This document shows positions 5,493 through 36,752 of a stretch of DNA of 64,000 nt, in pieces; positions within the stretch are counted from its first letter, which is position 1; each line of letters begins with the position of its first letter. Under the pieces are notes generated by a model. That model ran no database searches and had not been told where the DNA came from. It saw only the letters and a program-made list of their open reading frames with translations. The DNA comes from Sporomusa sp. KB1 (GTDB lineage Bacteria > Bacillota > Negativicutes > Sporomusales > Sporomusaceae): contig NZ_VLKC01000002.1 in assembly GCF_007830295.1 (NCBI RefSeq), positions 4,571,157-4,635,156 of the forward strand, written 5' to 3'. The position numbers were made by a program, and so were the translations under genes.

Positions 5493-5602
5493 ATTTGGCG
5501 AAAAAGGGATTTATAACGAGCAAAGCGAAGTAAATGTAAAAAACTACGGTTAAAATCGTGTTATCCGTCAATAATAACATACGCAAAGGAAGGTGCAAAT
5601 TT

Positions 5603-30592: not shown

Positions 30593-31456
30593 ATGCACGA
30601 CCATCTTATCCGGGCGACAGCGCCCGGAATTCGTGCCTTTGCGGCTATTACCACTAATCTAGTGGAAGAAGCACGGGGGCGGCATAATTGTTATCCTACA
30701 GCTACAGCTGCGCTGGGGCGCACCATGACAGGGGCATTATTATTGGCTGCCAACTTAAAAACAGCCGAAAGCATAACTGTAAGGATATCTGGCGACGGGC
30801 CGTTAAAAGAGATCGTGGCTGATGCCTATCCTGATGGCTCAGTACGTGGTTATGTCAGAAATCCCTTTGTCGATCTACCACTTAATCAGGGTAAATGGGA
30901 TGTCGGACAGGCTGTAGGGAAGGGGCACATCTATGTCACCCGCTTTGTTGGCCTCAAGCAGCCCTTTACAGGCAGTGCAGAACTAGTCTCAGGCGAAATA
31001 GCGGAAGATATAACCCAGTATCTTGCCGTATCAGAACAGACGCCGTCAAGCGTTGCGTTAGGCGTTTTGATTGCCCCTGACACAACTGTAGCGGCGGCAG
31101 GCGGATTTTTTATTCAAGCATTGCCAGGTGCAGAAGAAACTGCACTGGCTCAACTTGAAGATAATCTTCGGCAGCTGCCGCCAGTTTCACAAATGATTAG
31201 TAGTGGTAAAGATGCTAAAGGGATCTTAGAAATGCTATTTGCCGGACTGCCAATCACCTGCTATGACTCCCTGGAACTTACGTTTAACTGTCAATGTTCC
31301 CGGGAAAGAGTGGAAAATATGCTCATTAGTCTTGGCGCTGACGAAATTAAAGCAATGATTATTGAAGGCCAGGCAGAAGTCTGTTGTCATTTTTGCAGCG
31401 AAAAGTATCAATTTTCCGCTCAGGAACTTACTGCTATTTTGCAAGAAATCGTATAA
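30593..31456 (+). CDS. hslO: Redox-regulated chaperone Hsp33
   Basis: A 287-residue holdase chaperone. The N-terminal domain is followed by the C-terminal zinc switch: CQC near residue 236 and CHFC about 30 residues later, the CxC-x(n)-CxxC arrangement that is oxidised under stress. The start follows CCGGAGG. The last 510 bases plus the terminator (30948-31506) are duplicated, in shortened form, at 36502-36752. The gene is intact, but its 3' part could come from an incoming segment (see findings). Confidence 0.95.
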   Translation: MHDHLIRATAPGIRAFAAITTNLVEEARGRHNCYPTATAALGRTMTGALLLAANLKTAESITVRISGDGPLKEIVADAYPDGSVRGYVRNPFVDLPLNQGKWDVGQAVGKGHIYVTRFVGLKQPFTGSAELVSGEIAEDITQYLAVSEQTPSSVALGVLIAPDTTVAAAGGFFIQALPGAEETALAQLEDNLRQLPPVSQMISSGKDAKGILEMLFAGLPITCYDSLELTFNCQCSRERVENMLISLGADEIKAMIIEGQAEVCCHFCSEKYQFSAQELTAILQEIV

Positions 31457-31506
31457 TAAGCAAACCAAAAACAGCGGTGTAACTATCGCTGTTTTTTTGC
31501 ATTATA
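30948..31506 (+). repeat. Left copy of the hslO 3'-end direct repeat
   Basis: This stretch contains hslO codons from about 119 to the stop plus terminator and the following GCATTATA. It reappears as a shorter copy at 36502-36752 in the same orientation. The first 175 bases align with about eight substitutions and a 3-base insertion. The right copy then lacks about 311 bases, joined at an AGAA microhomology. Homology ends sharply at both sides. Confidence 0.85.
31467..31498 (+). terminator. Terminator of hslO
   Basis: AAACAGCG (31468-31475) pairs with CGCTGTTT (31487-31494), followed by T residues. A related terminator with a compensating extra C-G pair lies at 36713-36744. Confidence 0.88.
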
Positions 31507-31514
31507 GTGAACTC

Positions 31515-31853
31515 TGTGAGGGGTTTTACTTTTGGCATTGCCCCAAGTAACAAAAGGTCTAAGCCCTAAGCCTCCAAAGGCTGAAAAGCCGGGCGATATT
31601 CCTAAAATCCGTAAACTCGCTATGCTCAAACAGTACGGATTTTTTAACGGAATACCGCCCGGCTTTTCTCCTGCGGAACGCTTTTCCGGCAAAGTCCAGG
31701 GGGTTACGGGAGTTACGAGGGGTGCAGGGGTACCACCTTATGGGGATACAATTTCTTTAAGGCAAGGAGGTGGCGAAAAGAAGACTATCGTCATAGTCCT
31801 CTTCGGCAAAATGCTTATATAGCTTCACAGTGCAATCGTATAGCCGTTCTTCT
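31515..31853. repeat. Non-coding repeat-like region with an 86-nt hairpin
   Basis: No convincing gene is present between hslO and the LysR gene. The open frames read here are short and mirror one another because of a palindrome. GAAAAGCCGGGCGATATTCC (31583-31602) pairs with 31649-31668 at 19 of 20 positions, and inside it AAAATCCGTA (31604-31613) pairs with TACGGATTTT (31634-31643). The first part, 31515-31546, matches 35331-35362 at about 29 of 32 bases. This looks like a dispersed repeat element. Its family is not known to me. Confidence 0.6.
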
Positions 31854-32756
31854 TCAAAAAGAAGACCAGGATTGAAATACGCCAAAAATTTCTTGGAGAT
31901 ATTGATCAAGAATACGAATACTTTTCATAGTGGACTCATTGGGAAATTTGTGAATCACTTGCAAACATCGCCACCCTGGTATTTTCTCGGATAACTTTTG
32001 AAGTACAAACGGGTTGGACTGAATAAGCTGCTTCCCTACGGAAGCAGGAACAATGGCCCAATGTTGCATATCCTTCATAAAGACGGGAATCAGACCCGCA
32101 TTATCCAAATGAATGCGCGATGGACAGACAGGATCCCACCATTGGTCATGTTTAAATTGAAATTCTTTATTTAAATTTACATAGATTTCATAGCAAGGAT
32201 TTAGGTCTTTTTTATCAACACTGTCACCAGTCTGTCGCTCAGGAGCCGCCAAACGCAACAAGACCATATCTTCTGTAAAAATTGGTTTAACAGTAACACT
32301 TGGCGATACAATCTCACGCACCACAAATGCCACGTCCATTTCACGGCTTTCAATGCTATGAAAAGCTTCCTGTGTATGCTGGGTACGAATTTGCAGGCGT
32401 ATCGGCGGAGAGTATTGACTGAGTCTGTGATAAACAGGAGGCAAAACAAAATGACTCAAACTTTCAGCAACACTAATGGAAAGAGCCAATTGAGGACCGT
32501 TAGTTTGTAAAATTTGCGTTTCCCGCCTCAATGCATCCAACCGCTCCGCAATGCTAAAAAAACTTTCTCCCATAGGAGTCAGACTAATTTTTTTTAGTCC
32601 TTTCTTTCGCTCCATTAATAATCCGCCCATCTCTTCTTCCAATGTCTTGAGCCGGTAACTTACGGTGGCCTGCGATAGATGCAGCAGATTGGCAGCTTTG
32701 CTAATGCTTTGAGTCTGTACAATAGCTATAAAAGCTTCAATTCCAAGAAAATACAT
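31854..32756 (-). CDS. LysR-family transcriptional regulator
   Basis: A 300-residue regulator with an N-terminal winged helix-turn-helix (AFIAIVQTQSISKAANLLHLSQATVSYRLKTLEEE region, residues about 8-45) and a C-terminal periplasmic-binding-like effector domain. The start is ATG 32756 after GAGGGTG. It is divergent from the EamA transporter gene, the usual layout when a LysR protein controls its neighbour. The effector is unknown. It lies in the accessory block between the hslO repeats. Confidence 0.9.
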   Translation of the reverse strand: MYFLGIEAFIAIVQTQSISKAANLLHLSQATVSYRLKTLEEEMGGLLMERKKGLKKISLTPMGESFFSIAERLDALRRETQILQTNGPQLALSISVAESLSHFVLPPVYHRLSQYSPPIRLQIRTQHTQEAFHSIESREMDVAFVVREIVSPSVTVKPIFTEDMVLLRLAAPERQTGDSVDKKDLNPCYEIYVNLNKEFQFKHDQWWDPVCPSRIHLDNAGLIPVFMKDMQHWAIVPASVGKQLIQSNPFVLQKLSEKIPGWRCLQVIHKFPNESTMKSIRILDQYLQEIFGVFQSWSSF

Positions 32757-32782
32757 CAATAAACACCCTCTAATTATAGAAA

Positions 32783-32792
32783 ATATTAATAT
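32783..32792. promoter_or_regulatory. Candidate LysR operator palindrome
   Basis: ATATTAATAT, a perfect 10-base palindrome, lies in the 129-base divergent region between the LysR and EamA genes. LysR boxes are often AT-rich interrupted palindromes (T-N11-A). In AT-rich DNA such a site can occur by chance, so this is a weak call. Confidence 0.3.
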
Positions 32793-32885
32793 AAATCACA
32801 AATTATTTGAGTTTTACAAGAAGCATCTATATGTTTAAAATTATCATGAATGAATCTATTAGTCAATTTTATTGGAGGGATGTAA

Positions 32886-33746
32886 ATGACAGGGCTCGCT
32901 ATTGCTTTTGTACTAGTGGCCGCTTTCGCTCATGCCGGATGGAACTATCTATCGAAAAGAGCAGCAGGAGGAACAGCTTTTATCTGGTTATTCGCCAGTA
33001 TGTCGGTCTTAATTTATCTGCCCTTAGCCTGTTGGATTGTATTCATACAACAACCTGTTATCGGCTGGCATCAGTTGGCCTTTATGGTCGGCAGTGCTGC
33101 TCTTCATTCTTTGTATTTTATCTTACTGGACAAGGGATATACTGTTGGCGACCTATCGCTGGTCTATCCTTTAGCCCGCGGCACAGGTCCCATGCTTTCG
33201 ACCATTGCTGCCATTGTATTTCTTGGCGAGCAACCATCTCTCATTGCACTACTAGGAGCCGGATTAATTGGACTGGGAATTATTATAATGACCGGAAATC
33301 CCCTGGAAATAAAAAAAACTGCCGCCTATAAACCCATTTTTTTTGCCATACTGTGTGGTACGGTGATTGCCGCTTACACGATTTCAGACAAATTGGCTGT
33401 TAGCACTTTTTTGATTCCTCCGCTATTACTGGATTGGTCAGCCAATTTAGGCCGGACATGTATGTTAACTCCATATGCATTTAGAAATTGGAACAGCATA
33501 AAAGAGCAATGGAAAATTCATAAATTGGAAATTTTAGGCGTTGCGATACTATGTCCGTTGGCCTACATTTTGGTCTTGTCTGCTATGGTTTTTAGTCCCG
33601 TAAGTTATATCGCACCGGCAAGAGAAATCAGTATTTTAATCGGAACTTTTATGGGAGCTAAATTTCTTGCTGAAAAAAACATAAAACTGCGCCTTGCAGG
33701 GGCTACCGCAATACTTTGCGGCCTTGCGGCCTTGTCTGTTGGCTAA
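32886..33746 (+). CDS. EamA/DMT-family transporter
   Basis: A 286-residue membrane protein with about ten hydrophobic helices in two EamA halves (first half HAGWNYLSKRA, PLARGTGPMLSTIAA; second half SYIAPAREISILIGTFMGAKFLAE). DMT transporters move amino acids, sugars or other metabolites, often as exporters. The substrate cannot be told here. The start follows TTGGAGGGATGTAA. It is probably controlled by the divergent LysR regulator and ends at the terminator at 33790-33835. Confidence 0.9.
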   Translation: MTGLAIAFVLVAAFAHAGWNYLSKRAAGGTAFIWLFASMSVLIYLPLACWIVFIQQPVIGWHQLAFMVGSAALHSLYFILLDKGYTVGDLSLVYPLARGTGPMLSTIAAIVFLGEQPSLIALLGAGLIGLGIIIMTGNPLEIKKTAAYKPIFFAILCGTVIAAYTISDKLAVSTFLIPPLLLDWSANLGRTCMLTPYAFRNWNSIKEQWKIHKLEILGVAILCPLAYILVLSAMVFSPVSYIAPAREISILIGTFMGAKFLAEKNIKLRLAGATAILCGLAALSVG

Positions 33747-33789
33747 CTTAAAGACATTTTTTAATTAAAACTTTGCTAACATGGAATAC

Positions 33790-33835
33790 AAAAGCCAGTA
33801 ACCCGGGGAAAGACCCAGTGTTCCTGGCTTTTACT
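33790..33835 (+). terminator. Terminator of the EamA gene
   Basis: AAAAGCCAG (33790-33798) pairs with CTGGCTTTT (33824-33832) around a 25-base loop, and the stem ends in T residues. Confidence 0.7.
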
Positions 33836-34070
33836 ATTTATATAATCGGTTGTTTTCGGACGTACCAGGGGCGAGTGAATAAACAAGCATGGTGGTTAAT
33901 TTATTTTTTGTAAAAAGCAGGAATTTATTGTTATTTTGTGGTAGTAATTATAATATTACACAATTTTATAAGAAATAAACAATTTATAAGGGGTGATGCC
34001 AACTAAGCAAATCTCAAAGAAAAAGCACCGTTTCACGATACCATTATGAGAGGAGATGGAATCCGGCTTA
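33836..34070 (+). other. Gap before the TctC gene, with a possible promoter
   Basis: No gene is visible. A consensus-like TATAAT lies at 33949-33954 with TTGTTA at 33928-33933 (15-base spacing, short). GAGAGGAG at 34048-34055 is the nearest ribosome-like site to the next gene. Confidence 0.4.
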
Positions 34071-35093
34071 ATGAATTCAAAACGGCTTTTACTTATTGGA
34101 ATTACCAGCCTATTAGGCATGACAATCACGCTAGGAGGTTGTGGCATGGGAGCAAAAGAGAGTATGGTTTCTGAAAAATATCCGGCAAAACCCATTACGA
34201 TAATTGTGCCGTTTGCCGCTGGCGGTAGCTCAGACATAATAGCACGAATGCTGGAAAAGCCAGCTCTAAAACAATTCGGACAATCGTTTATTGTTGTTAA
34301 TATGCCTGGTGGAGCAGCTACAATTGGTATGAACGAATTAGCCGGAGCTAAACCAGATGGATATACAATTGGAATTGTTGGCGCTAGTGTATTTTTACAA
34401 CCTTTATACGGACAAACCAGATACCATTATCCTTCTGCGTTGGAACCATTAGTTCAAACTACATCTATGCCTATGGTTTTGGCCACTCTTTCGGAGAAAC
34501 CTTGGAAGAACCTTAATGAATTAGTCAGCTATGCGAAACAACATCCAGGTGAAATAAAATATGGGCATAATGGTTTAGGTTCGGCACCACATATTACAGG
34601 AGAGATGGTTGCTAAAGAAGCAGGTATTTCGATAGTACCGGTTCCATTTAAGGGTGATTCAGAAGCACTTGCTGCACTTTTAGGTGGGCATGTGCAATTG
34701 ATAGTTGCCGCCACTCCTTCTGCTTTAAAGGAACATATACAGAACGGCACAATCCGAATACTGGGAGTTGCAGAAAAAGATAGATTAAGTATTCCCGGAT
34801 TTGAAGATGTTCCCACTTTCAACGAACAAGGGCTTAATGTCGCTTTTAGTCTTTGGAATGGTATCGCTGCCCCCAAGGGCATGCCACTAGCGGAAAAGGC
34901 CAGGCTGGCAGCCGGGCTAAGGGAAATGATCAATGACCCTGACTTCAAAAAGAACATGGAGGAACTGGGAATGTCAGTCCAGTATATGGGGCCTGAGGAT
35001 TTTAGTGAAAGATGGATAGAAGATAATGCAAAATTAACGAAAATAGTAAAAGAGACCGGAATTGCAGAACTTATTGCGTCTCAGAAAAAATAA
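34071..35093 (+). CDS. TctC/Bug-type substrate-binding lipoprotein
   Basis: A 340-residue tripartite tricarboxylate transporter (TTT) receptor: KPITIIVPFAAGGSSDIIARM near the N-terminus, a typical mid-region (YGHNGLGSAPHITGEM, VPFKGDSEALAALLGG) and a C-terminal FSERWIEDNA. The N-terminus has a lipoprotein signal with lipobox LGGC at about residue 22-25. The start is uncertain: ATG 34071 is 15 bases from GAGAGGAG and the in-frame ATG at 34056 abuts it. The membrane partners TctA and TctB are absent nearby, so it is an orphan receptor in this window. Confidence 0.88.
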   Translation: MNSKRLLLIGITSLLGMTITLGGCGMGAKESMVSEKYPAKPITIIVPFAAGGSSDIIARMLEKPALKQFGQSFIVVNMPGGAATIGMNELAGAKPDGYTIGIVGASVFLQPLYGQTRYHYPSALEPLVQTTSMPMVLATLSEKPWKNLNELVSYAKQHPGEIKYGHNGLGSAPHITGEMVAKEAGISIVPVPFKGDSEALAALLGGHVQLIVAATPSALKEHIQNGTIRILGVAEKDRLSIPGFEDVPTFNEQGLNVAFSLWNGIAAPKGMPLAEKARLAAGLREMINDPDFKKNMEELGMSVQYMGPEDFSERWIEDNAKLTKIVKETGIAELIASQKK

Positions 35094-35638
35094 TCGTGGG
35101 CCGAAAGCCAAAACGACGCAAATTATAAGCGACAAATCAAGACCACCCCATAAAACGGGTAATCCTGATCATAGATAGGGGTGTCGCCAACATTTCCGAC
35201 AAATTCCACGCTAATAGAAAATATATGCGAATTTCATACGTTAAGGAAGTTGTAGCAGGAATAAAGCCGTTTTCCCATACGACCGGCTTGACCGAAATTA
35301 GGCGATAGTTGGAGACGTTATGGAATACAAGGAGAGGGGTTTTACTTTTGGCATTGGCCCAAAAGTTGGATTGAATTTTGAAAGTACTGAGATTTTACGT
35401 TGACACCTATATGAAAATATAAAATAATGGAAAATAATCAGAAGATGGTTATTGCTTATTCGTTTTATATGGGGTAACGCCAACATTTTCGACAAAACCC
35501 ACGCTAAGACAAAAACTGGATGAAAAGTCGAATTTTCACCCACTCTAAGCTATAACGAATCTTTACATATAGTGGTATAATTTAGAAATACGTTATTATA
35601 GAATAGTAGTAAATTGTGAACTGAAGATAATTATATTA
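35094..35638. repeat. Non-coding stretch with two kinds of repeat fragment
   Basis: No gene is supported in this 545-base gap. An imperfect direct repeat occurs at 35177-35220 and 35470-35514: GCCAACATTT(C/T)CGACAAA followed by CCACGCTAA, with 36 of 44 bases equal. A third fragment at 35331-35362 matches 31515-31546. The pattern suggests decayed dispersed elements, not a gene. Confidence 0.55.
35573..35581 (+). promoter_or_regulatory. Extended -10 promoter for the methyltransferase gene
   Basis: TGGTATAAT combines a TGn extension with a consensus -10 element at 35576-35581, about 58 bases before the methyltransferase start. No good -35 element is seen at 17 bases. Confidence 0.45.
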
Positions 35639-36466
35639 ATGGAGGGTGTCGGCATAGACAAGAATTCTGATTATAGAACAAACATTATAGGTGCTGGCGA
35701 GGTTGGCTGCGCCAGCTCGATCGACATGGACAAGCAGTTTGTTTATAAAACAAACTGCTTCTTTTGGGACACAAAAGGAAATGATGTTTTAGGAGCAATC
35801 TCGCTTCCTTTTTATGGAGCGTTTGTCTCAGAAGAAAAATGCCAACTTTTTGGCGATATATCAGGAAAAAAGATGCTGGAGATAGGCTGTGGAACCGGTC
35901 ATTCCTTGCAATATCAGGGGGAACGCAAAGCATCTGAACTATGGGGTATGGATATATCAGAAAAACAAATCGAAAAGGCAAAGCAACATTTGACGGCATG
36001 CGGTCTTTCAGCAAAATTGATCTGTTGTCCCATGGAAGAAGAATGTGGCATACCAGTGGATTATTTTGACTTTGTTTATTCGATTTATGCCATAGGCTGG
36101 ACCACCGACCTTGAGGGTACTTTTTGCCGGATCGCTTCTTACCTTAAAAAAGACGGCGCATTTATTTTCAGTTGGTCTCACCCTATACACAAATGTGTTG
36201 TTGCAGAAAATAATATACTTGCTTTTAAAAAATGTTATTTCGATGAATCTTGGTATTCGGTATCTCTTGATGAAGGTGCGCTAACATTATCAGACCGTAA
36301 ACTATCAACCTATGTGAATGCGTTGGCAAAAGCGGGATTTGTAATTGAACAAATGATTGAGCAATCTGATGATGAAATTATGCAATCGCGGGACGATAAC
36401 AGCGATTTTTCCCAAAAAGCAAAGATGCTTCCTATAACTTTTGTAGTCAAAGCAAGAAAACTATAA
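35639..36466 (+). CDS. Class I SAM-dependent methyltransferase
   Basis: A 275-residue protein whose Rossmann motif I, MLEIGCGTGHSLQ, and following MDISEKQIEKAK mark a Methyltransf_11/25-type enzyme of unknown substrate. The start is unclear. ATG 35639 has only a poor ribosome site; Met30 (35726) would give a 246-residue protein starting MDKQFVYKTNCFFW. A perfect 13-bp hairpin (35732-35760) lies just after that second start. It is in the accessory block between the hslO repeats and has no obvious partner. Confidence 0.85.
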   Translation: MEGVGIDKNSDYRTNIIGAGEVGCASSIDMDKQFVYKTNCFFWDTKGNDVLGAISLPFYGAFVSEEKCQLFGDISGKKMLEIGCGTGHSLQYQGERKASELWGMDISEKQIEKAKQHLTACGLSAKLICCPMEEECGIPVDYFDFVYSIYAIGWTTDLEGTFCRIASYLKKDGAFIFSWSHPIHKCVVAENNILAFKKCYFDESWYSVSLDEGALTLSDRKLSTYVNALAKAGFVIEQMIEQSDDEIMQSRDDNSDFSQKAKMLPITFVVKARKL

Positions 36467-36501
36467 GAGTACAGTATAAGCATTTTCAGTACCAAAACTA
36501 C

Positions 36502-36752
36502 TTGGCCTCAAGCAACCCTTTACAGGCATTGCAGAACTAGTCTCAGGCAAAATAGCGGAAGATATAACCCAATATCTTGCCGTATCAGAACAGACGCCAT
36601 CAAGCGTTGCGTTAGGCGTTTTGATTGCCCCTGACACAACAACCGTAGCGGCGGCAGGCGGATTTTTTACTCAACCATTACCAGAGGTAGAAATCGGATA
36701 ATAAGCAAACAAAAACCAGCGGTATACATATCGCTGGTTTTTTTGCATTATA
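36502..36752 (+). pseudogene. Truncated copy of the hslO 3' end with its terminator
   Basis: In-frame translation reads [21 protein letters not shown] and continues like Hsp33 for about 60 residues, then jumps to the last codons and a stop. It has no start codon, lacks the first 118 codons, and has an internal loss of about 311 bases that removes all four zinc cysteines. It carries one extra codon (Thr) and several substitutions relative to hslO at 30593. It lies immediately before the convergent rpmB. Confidence 0.85.
36713..36744 (+). terminator. Terminator of the hslO pseudogene copy
   Basis: AAACCAGCG (36713-36721) pairs with CGCTGGTTT (36732-36740), then T residues. Relative to the terminator at 31467 an extra C-G pair is present on both arms, so pairing has been kept. 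Confidence 0.8.

Follow-up and report, generated by a model that had tools for sequence, protein, structure and literature searches.

Integration hotspots between conserved core genes combine one fixed gap with variable cargo. Homology-facilitated illegitimate recombination generally leaves a deletion, and the illegitimate joint mostly shows 3–10 bp of microhomology (PMC3240628). In the orphan immunity genes of the T6SS of Vibrio cholerae and in the orphan 3' regions of Rhs, incoming DNA becomes attached to a conserved 5' part and the old 3' part is pushed downstream; a process resembling homology-facilitated illegitimate recombination has been proposed for this (PMC5361080).

Here, we analyzed the interval between hslO and rpmB in Sporomusa sp. 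KB1 (genome label G000), using a stretch of 64 kb that we call the window. A sequence-only reading had described this interval as a block bracketed by two hslO ends and had taken, as the simplest account, that a DNA circle or imported segment with an hslO end had integrated there. We propose, with a probability of roughly 0.7, that the block grew by stepwise accretion at an accessory-gene hotspot in the convergent hslO/rpmB gap, which would have begun when an ectopic recombination inside the species group made a second copy of about 600 bp of hslO. A hotspot of this sort is known in kind and fairly ordinary.

The hslO-rpmB interval and its counterparts in relatives

The intact left copy of hslO, which encodes the Hsp33 chaperone (30593–31456, plus strand; Pfam PF01430, E 3e-96), is followed by its terminator (31470–31506, plus strand), read from the sequence and with a counterpart in the right copy, and by a dispersed intergenic repeat (31516–31822, plus strand) that consists of an 86-nt hairpin core (31583–31668) and a tail, as seen from its other copies in the genome and from the DNA fold. 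Next come three genes assigned by Pfam, for a LysR-type regulator (31854–32759, minus strand), which S. ovata has at the same locus, an EamA-family transporter (32886–33746, plus strand), and a TctC-type solute receptor without adjoining TctA or TctB (34056–35093, plus strand). Beyond these lie the first copy of a short dispersed motif, GGGGTGTCGCCAACATTTCCGACAAA (35178–35221, plus strand), and a piece of the dispersed repeat's leader (35320–35366, plus strand), in which 31518–31546 recurs at 35334–35362 with 97% identity; this leader is also present in other copies of the repeat. A recently acquired unit (35454–36498, plus strand; 98.2% identical to S. silvacetica) holds the second copy of the short motif (35471–35514) and a class I SAM-dependent methyltransferase gene (35639–36466, plus strand; Pfam) with prophage-borne relatives. 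The decaying second hslO 3' end with its terminator, hslO' (36502–36752, plus strand), was recognized by its repeat match and is common to S. silvacetica; it is directly followed by rpmB for ribosomal protein L28 (36804–36995, minus strand), the ancestral neighbor of hslO.

The four genes that the sequence-only reading had placed between the two hslO ends (LysR, EamA, TctC, and the class I methyltransferase) were all found by Pfam, and its remark that no integrase was visible agrees with the absence of any recombinase or integrase, and of any replication or transfer gene, among the seven proteins scanned with Pfam (five from the block and two from outside it). ARAGORN found no tRNA in the window, and the targeting of a tRNA gene was rejected on this ground.

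A search of 41 genomes found hslO in 38 of them and a second partial hslO match in only two, G000 and S. silvacetica DSM 10669 (G008). Separately, 50 loci were scanned downstream of hslO for rpmB, with some species possibly counted twice, gap distances measured from the last matched hslO residue, and S. silvacetica left out, as two contigs share its locus. rpmB occurs in 32 of the 50 loci and is convergent in all 32, with a gap of 44–360 nt in 27. The five wider gaps belong to S. acidovorans (G004, 721 nt, containing the dispersed repeat), a Veillonellaceae MAG (1594 nt), two Phascolarctobacterium MAGs (4065 and 4046 nt), and S. ovata DSM 2662 (G007, 9596 nt); outside the genus, the gap is thus also 1.6 to 4 kb wide in the Phascolarctobacterium and Veillonellaceae MAGs (L075, L076, L071). 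Five of the 18 loci where rpmB is absent span 10 kb (L074, L078, L083, L086, L088), and in these, which all lie outside the genus, the neighbor of hslO is a different one; the other 13 cover just 2 to 6480 bases downstream. Because rpmB is convergent in 32/32 loci and lies within 360 nt of hslO in 27 of the 50, the block between the two genes is an insertion.

Within the genus, compact gaps of 119–210 nt occur in G002, G003, S. malonica (G005), and S. termitida (G006), as well as in G011 of a neighboring genus, which bears out the earlier claim that hslO and rpmB were once neighbors. G001 and G002 are soil MAGs, and the contig of G001 ends inside hslO, so that its site is not readable. The eight other Sporomusa genomes comprise five sites without cargo, one that is cut off (G001), and two that are filled differently. 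A comparison of this interval in relatives, which had been suggested as a check on insertion, did reveal empty sites, but the filled sites of the sister species differ in content.

In S. ovata, hslO and the repeat are followed by a Phd/ParE-like pair, LysR-EamA-TctC, two GNAT genes, a different kind of methyltransferase, another Phd-like gene that falls below the cut-off of Pfam, more copies of the repeat, and rpmB; no second hslO end is present at this locus despite its 9.6-kb cargo-filled gap. The EamA gene of S. ovata (L033:7000–7859) lies in two frames through a one-base difference in a run of A, which is either real or a sequencing error. The order in S. silvacetica is hslO, the repeat broken by an insertion element, the methyltransferase, repeat-like filler, a longer hslO remnant (from the equivalent of window position 30899), and rpmB. 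Here the adjacency of contigs C15 and C30 is deduced from the repeat halves, which meet at 31622|31624, and from the same inverted sequence at the end of each contig. Neither LysR, EamA, nor TctC occurs in the two S. silvacetica stretches read, and no EamA closer than 51% is found anywhere in that genome. The window holds both cargo sets, LysR-EamA-TctC and the methyltransferase, so that one spot, whose conserved flanking genes are adjacent in relatives, carries differing cargo in three species.

The second hslO end

Positions 30948–31086 recur in direct orientation at 36502–36640 (139 nt, 96%), followed by two direct matches of 87% that link 31082–31135 to 36639–36692 and 31444–31498 to 36689–36743. 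The similarity of the two hslO ends is far beyond chance, and the recurrence of the 3' end with its terminator at 36502–36752, in the same orientation, is as had been reported. The offset between the copies drops from 5554–5557 to 5245, which means that about 309–312 bases are missing in the second copy, in line with the earlier figure of 311. The identity, put at about 95% before, measures slightly less, 93.4% (171 of 183 sites equal over 30950–31132).

The second copy lies at 36502–36752 as described, but 36502 is not its original left edge: the remnant in S. silvacetica starts about 50 bases further upstream, at window position 30899, and its internal deletion, judged by eye, ends at a short TGCA match and not at AGAA. 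From both differences it follows that the window remnant has been trimmed further. In both species, the second hslO end has lost about 300 bp internally, and for this reason the duplication would either predate the split of the window species and S. silvacetica or have arisen in one of them with later transfer to the other. The remnant has no evident function.

The right copies of these two species are equal at 164 of 178 sites; they match the three hslO genes of the group at 166–171 of 178–183 sites and those of three outgroups at only 133–143 of 178–183. In a tree of 226 columns, for which support is modest, the right copies pair (94%), join the hslO of S. silvacetica (67%), and fall within the clade of S. 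ovata, S. silvacetica, and the window species (74%). Identities and tree placement together indicate that this group is itself the most likely source of the duplicated end. A foreign hslO end was rejected on the same clade support and identities, and the imported segment of the sequence-only reading is not supported. That reading had named a right copy grouping with the hslO of an empty site as support for insertion; the outcome is mixed, as the right copies form a pair of their own next to the hslO of S. silvacetica and do not group with the empty-site species.

Part of the intact hslO (31133–31440) is 0.893 similar between G000 and S. silvacetica, below all 317 overlapping windows of the flanks (next lowest 0.899); relative to S. 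ovata the same part is ordinary, with 101 of 388 windows as low. This low similarity fits an exchange within hslO, although it is no proof of one. The branching of the three close species is near-star, with a support of 90% in the left flank, 51% in hslO, and 45% in the right flank, and a resolved species order was dropped. With such branching, S. ovata may have lost the remnant or never gained it, and LysR-EamA-TctC may have been lost in S. silvacetica or gained in the others, an ambiguity that counts against the stepwise account.

An island that used the hslO 3' end as its attachment site would be expected at a gene end beside the terminator, where the insert indeed sits. Such site-specific integration is nevertheless highly improbable, as the duplicated stretch is about 600 bp long and degenerate, with no short exact direct repeat as a core at both ends, no integrase was found among the proteins scanned, and S. 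ovata has no remnant despite 9.6 kb of cargo in its gap.

Repeats and cargo of different ages

The dispersed repeat at the left edge of the block forms 13 separate stretches of at least 85 nt in the KB1 genome, window copy included (18 match rows), and occurs in eight of nine genomes of the genus with 4 to 57 match rows each, in which halves and opposite-strand hairpin matches are counted. Its hairpin has a DNA fold z of −5.5, and in S. ovata and S. silvacetica, too, the repeat directly follows hslO. Assignment of the repeats or the remnant to an Rfam family was rejected, as the only three matches all lie below the gathering scores of their families, and a phage origin of the repeat was dropped after no match was found in phage records. 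No paper in the collection searched combines Sporomusa, the repeat, and hslO.

Insertion elements with two types of end sequences interrupt the hairpin loop of the repeat in S. silvacetica at exactly the same place (CTCGCTACG|CTC) in 12 of 12 contig-end junctions (L034, L031, L143–L152), which were chosen for a broken repeat match; other copies in this species are unbroken. One of the loop-inserted elements carries an rve-type transposase end. By analogy, these junctions look like loop-targeted insertion of the kind that REP elements undergo. IS1397 provides a parallel for insertion sequences that target REP-type palindromes. The short motif GGGGTGTCGCCAACATTTCCGACAAA..CCACGCTAA also occurs in G002, G008, and G021 and elsewhere in G000, beside unrelated genes. 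An IS21-type end was one candidate, but a role as an insertion-sequence end was set aside, as no transposase was seen beside five of its loci (ORFs of at least 100 aa, inspected by eye).

The genes of the block differ in age. Pooled over 11 core genes, G000 and S. silvacetica show 446 synonymous differences in 2827 sites (dS 0.12–0.30 per gene), against two in 172.5 sites for the methyltransferase (dS 0.012; Fisher p 3e-10 versus the core pool). The LysR genes of G000 and S. ovata have a dS of 0.129, close to the lowest values of the core genes in this pair (0.132–0.334). Judged by synonymous sites, the divergence of LysR is about core-like and the methyltransferase is far younger.

Over 35465–36502, the methyltransferase unit has 94.7% DNA identity to G064, a genome of another family in which the right end is the same and the flanks are different; by contrast, the dS of recG versus S. 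termitida, a member of the same genus, is 2.4. Protein matches to the methyltransferase at E ≤ 1e-40 occur in six of 300 genomes of the class, own genome included, among which that of S. ovata is only 49% identical and that of S. acidovorans is a fragment; by DNA, matches occur in six of 398 genomes of the phylum, own included. The S. termitida gene lies between phage head genes and tail/neck genes, and a relative on an IMG/VR contig lies beside phage tail and lysis-type genes (ORFs as read). These close relatives (L094, L129) are an extra gene within prophage head/neck and tail regions. In G064, a phage-type regulator and the N-terminal part of a sigma factor precede the gene, a context from which we infer a skin-type element. 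The identities and gene contexts show a very recent unit that moves between families and in places travels with prophages.

That this unit occupies an equivalent place in the window species and S. silvacetica, and yet is far younger than the remnant beside it, counts against the stepwise account. It could also be a discrete, non-autonomous mobile unit (35454/35465–36498) that entered beside the hslO remnant independently in the two species. Its right end (AGTACCAAAAC) is identical in three genomes of two families with differing flanks, and its left end bears the dispersed motif; we consider this explanation doubtful.

The TctC gene has a history of its own, being closer to a gene elsewhere in S. 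silvacetica (90.9% identity) than to its S. ovata counterpart in this interval (about 80%, down to 67% per 100-base bin). Six matches at E ≤ 1e-90, itself included, occur in its own genome. Relative to the S. ovata locus gene, its middle part (34193–34893) is only 67–79% identical and its ends are about 88–95% identical, a pattern that suggests exchange among TctC paralogues.

With a dS of 0.012 to S. silvacetica for the methyltransferase, a dS of 0.129 to S. ovata for LysR, and a third pattern for TctC, the block lacks the one history that the parts of a single element would share. A single-event insertion was rejected on these ages and on the distribution among the sister species, in which S. 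ovata has cargo without the second hslO end and S. silvacetica has the second end without LysR-EamA-TctC. The same difficulty faces a Campbell-type single crossover with a circle that brought in an hslO 3' piece together with the whole block. It would account for an intact left copy and a 5'-truncated right copy in the same orientation, and empty sites do exist, but the contents differ in age and in distribution, the seven proteins scanned include no replication, transfer, or integrase gene, and there is no sign of a foreign hslO end; we regard it as improbable.

Proposed history and comparison with known systems

In the stepwise account, ectopic recombination within the group would first have joined an hslO with trailing DNA to about codon 103 of the resident hslO, in the simplest form by one-sided integration from a close relative whose hslO was already followed by extra DNA. 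This would have duplicated about 600 bp, leaving the left copy intact and the right copy, still joined to rpmB, as a displaced remnant. The comparison of species then shows decay of the remnant, with the internal loss of about 300 bp that both species have and with frame damage and later trimming in each, and cargo pieces that have had separate histories. A donor-like state, with hslO, repeat, and cargo but without the remnant, is present in S. ovata.

The junctions bear on the first step. Both copies diverge right after the same GCATTATA in the window, with the insert placed precisely from one copy end to the other: the left copy keeps the first eight bases beyond the terminator before the dispersed repeat begins, and the right copy runs past its terminator into rpmB. 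As compact sites continue into rpmB in the same way, the right copy is likely the native junction. One-sided integration is favored because a single event explains, without coincidence, an insert placed exactly between two ends. A serious rival, although we think it the less probable course, is a plain tandem duplication of about 600 bp, from codon 103 to just past the terminator, after which repeats and cargo would have entered between the two copies independently. The origin of both copies in one species group, a cargo of mixed age that is in part younger than the remnant, and the abundance of dispersed repeats in the genus would all agree with it; those insertions, however, would need to have hit the new joint exactly, and no leftover sequence from the hslO or rpmB side separates the end of the left copy from the repeat, nor does any precede the remnant apart from the repeat-like filler in S. 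silvacetica.

The locus is a datable case of a core-gene gap turning into an accessory hotspot. Within one genus, sites are empty, hold the repeat only, or are filled in different ways, and a displaced gene end serves as a marker common to two species. Gene-end repeats on both sides of a block do not necessarily imply a single insertion, given that the contents here clearly differ in age.

Like hotspots between core genes, the hslO-rpmB gap is fixed, has variable cargo in sister species, and shows no dedicated integrase among the proteins scanned; unlike in them, the cargo is small, and one single gene within it has moved recently and widely. Like REP-type palindromes (PMC1525189), the repeat at the left edge of the block is a dispersed intergenic hairpin whose loop is hit by insertion sequences in S. 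silvacetica, but the Sporomusa unit is longer, at about 200 bp or more, with the 13 stretches of at least 85 nt in the window genome. A homologous and an illegitimate junction, as in homology-facilitated illegitimate recombination (PMC3240628), would suffice to bring an insert in after a conserved gene in a single step. That reaction generally deletes DNA, with recipient sequence lost at the illegitimate joint, whereas the Sporomusa locus shows a duplication whose original joint has eroded, and we therefore do not file it as a product of that reaction. The locus also resembles the T6SS and Rhs orphans (PMC5361080), where a displaced old 3' part likewise stays downstream as an orphan; those displaced genes may stay useful, whereas the hslO end is the decaying debris of a housekeeping gene.
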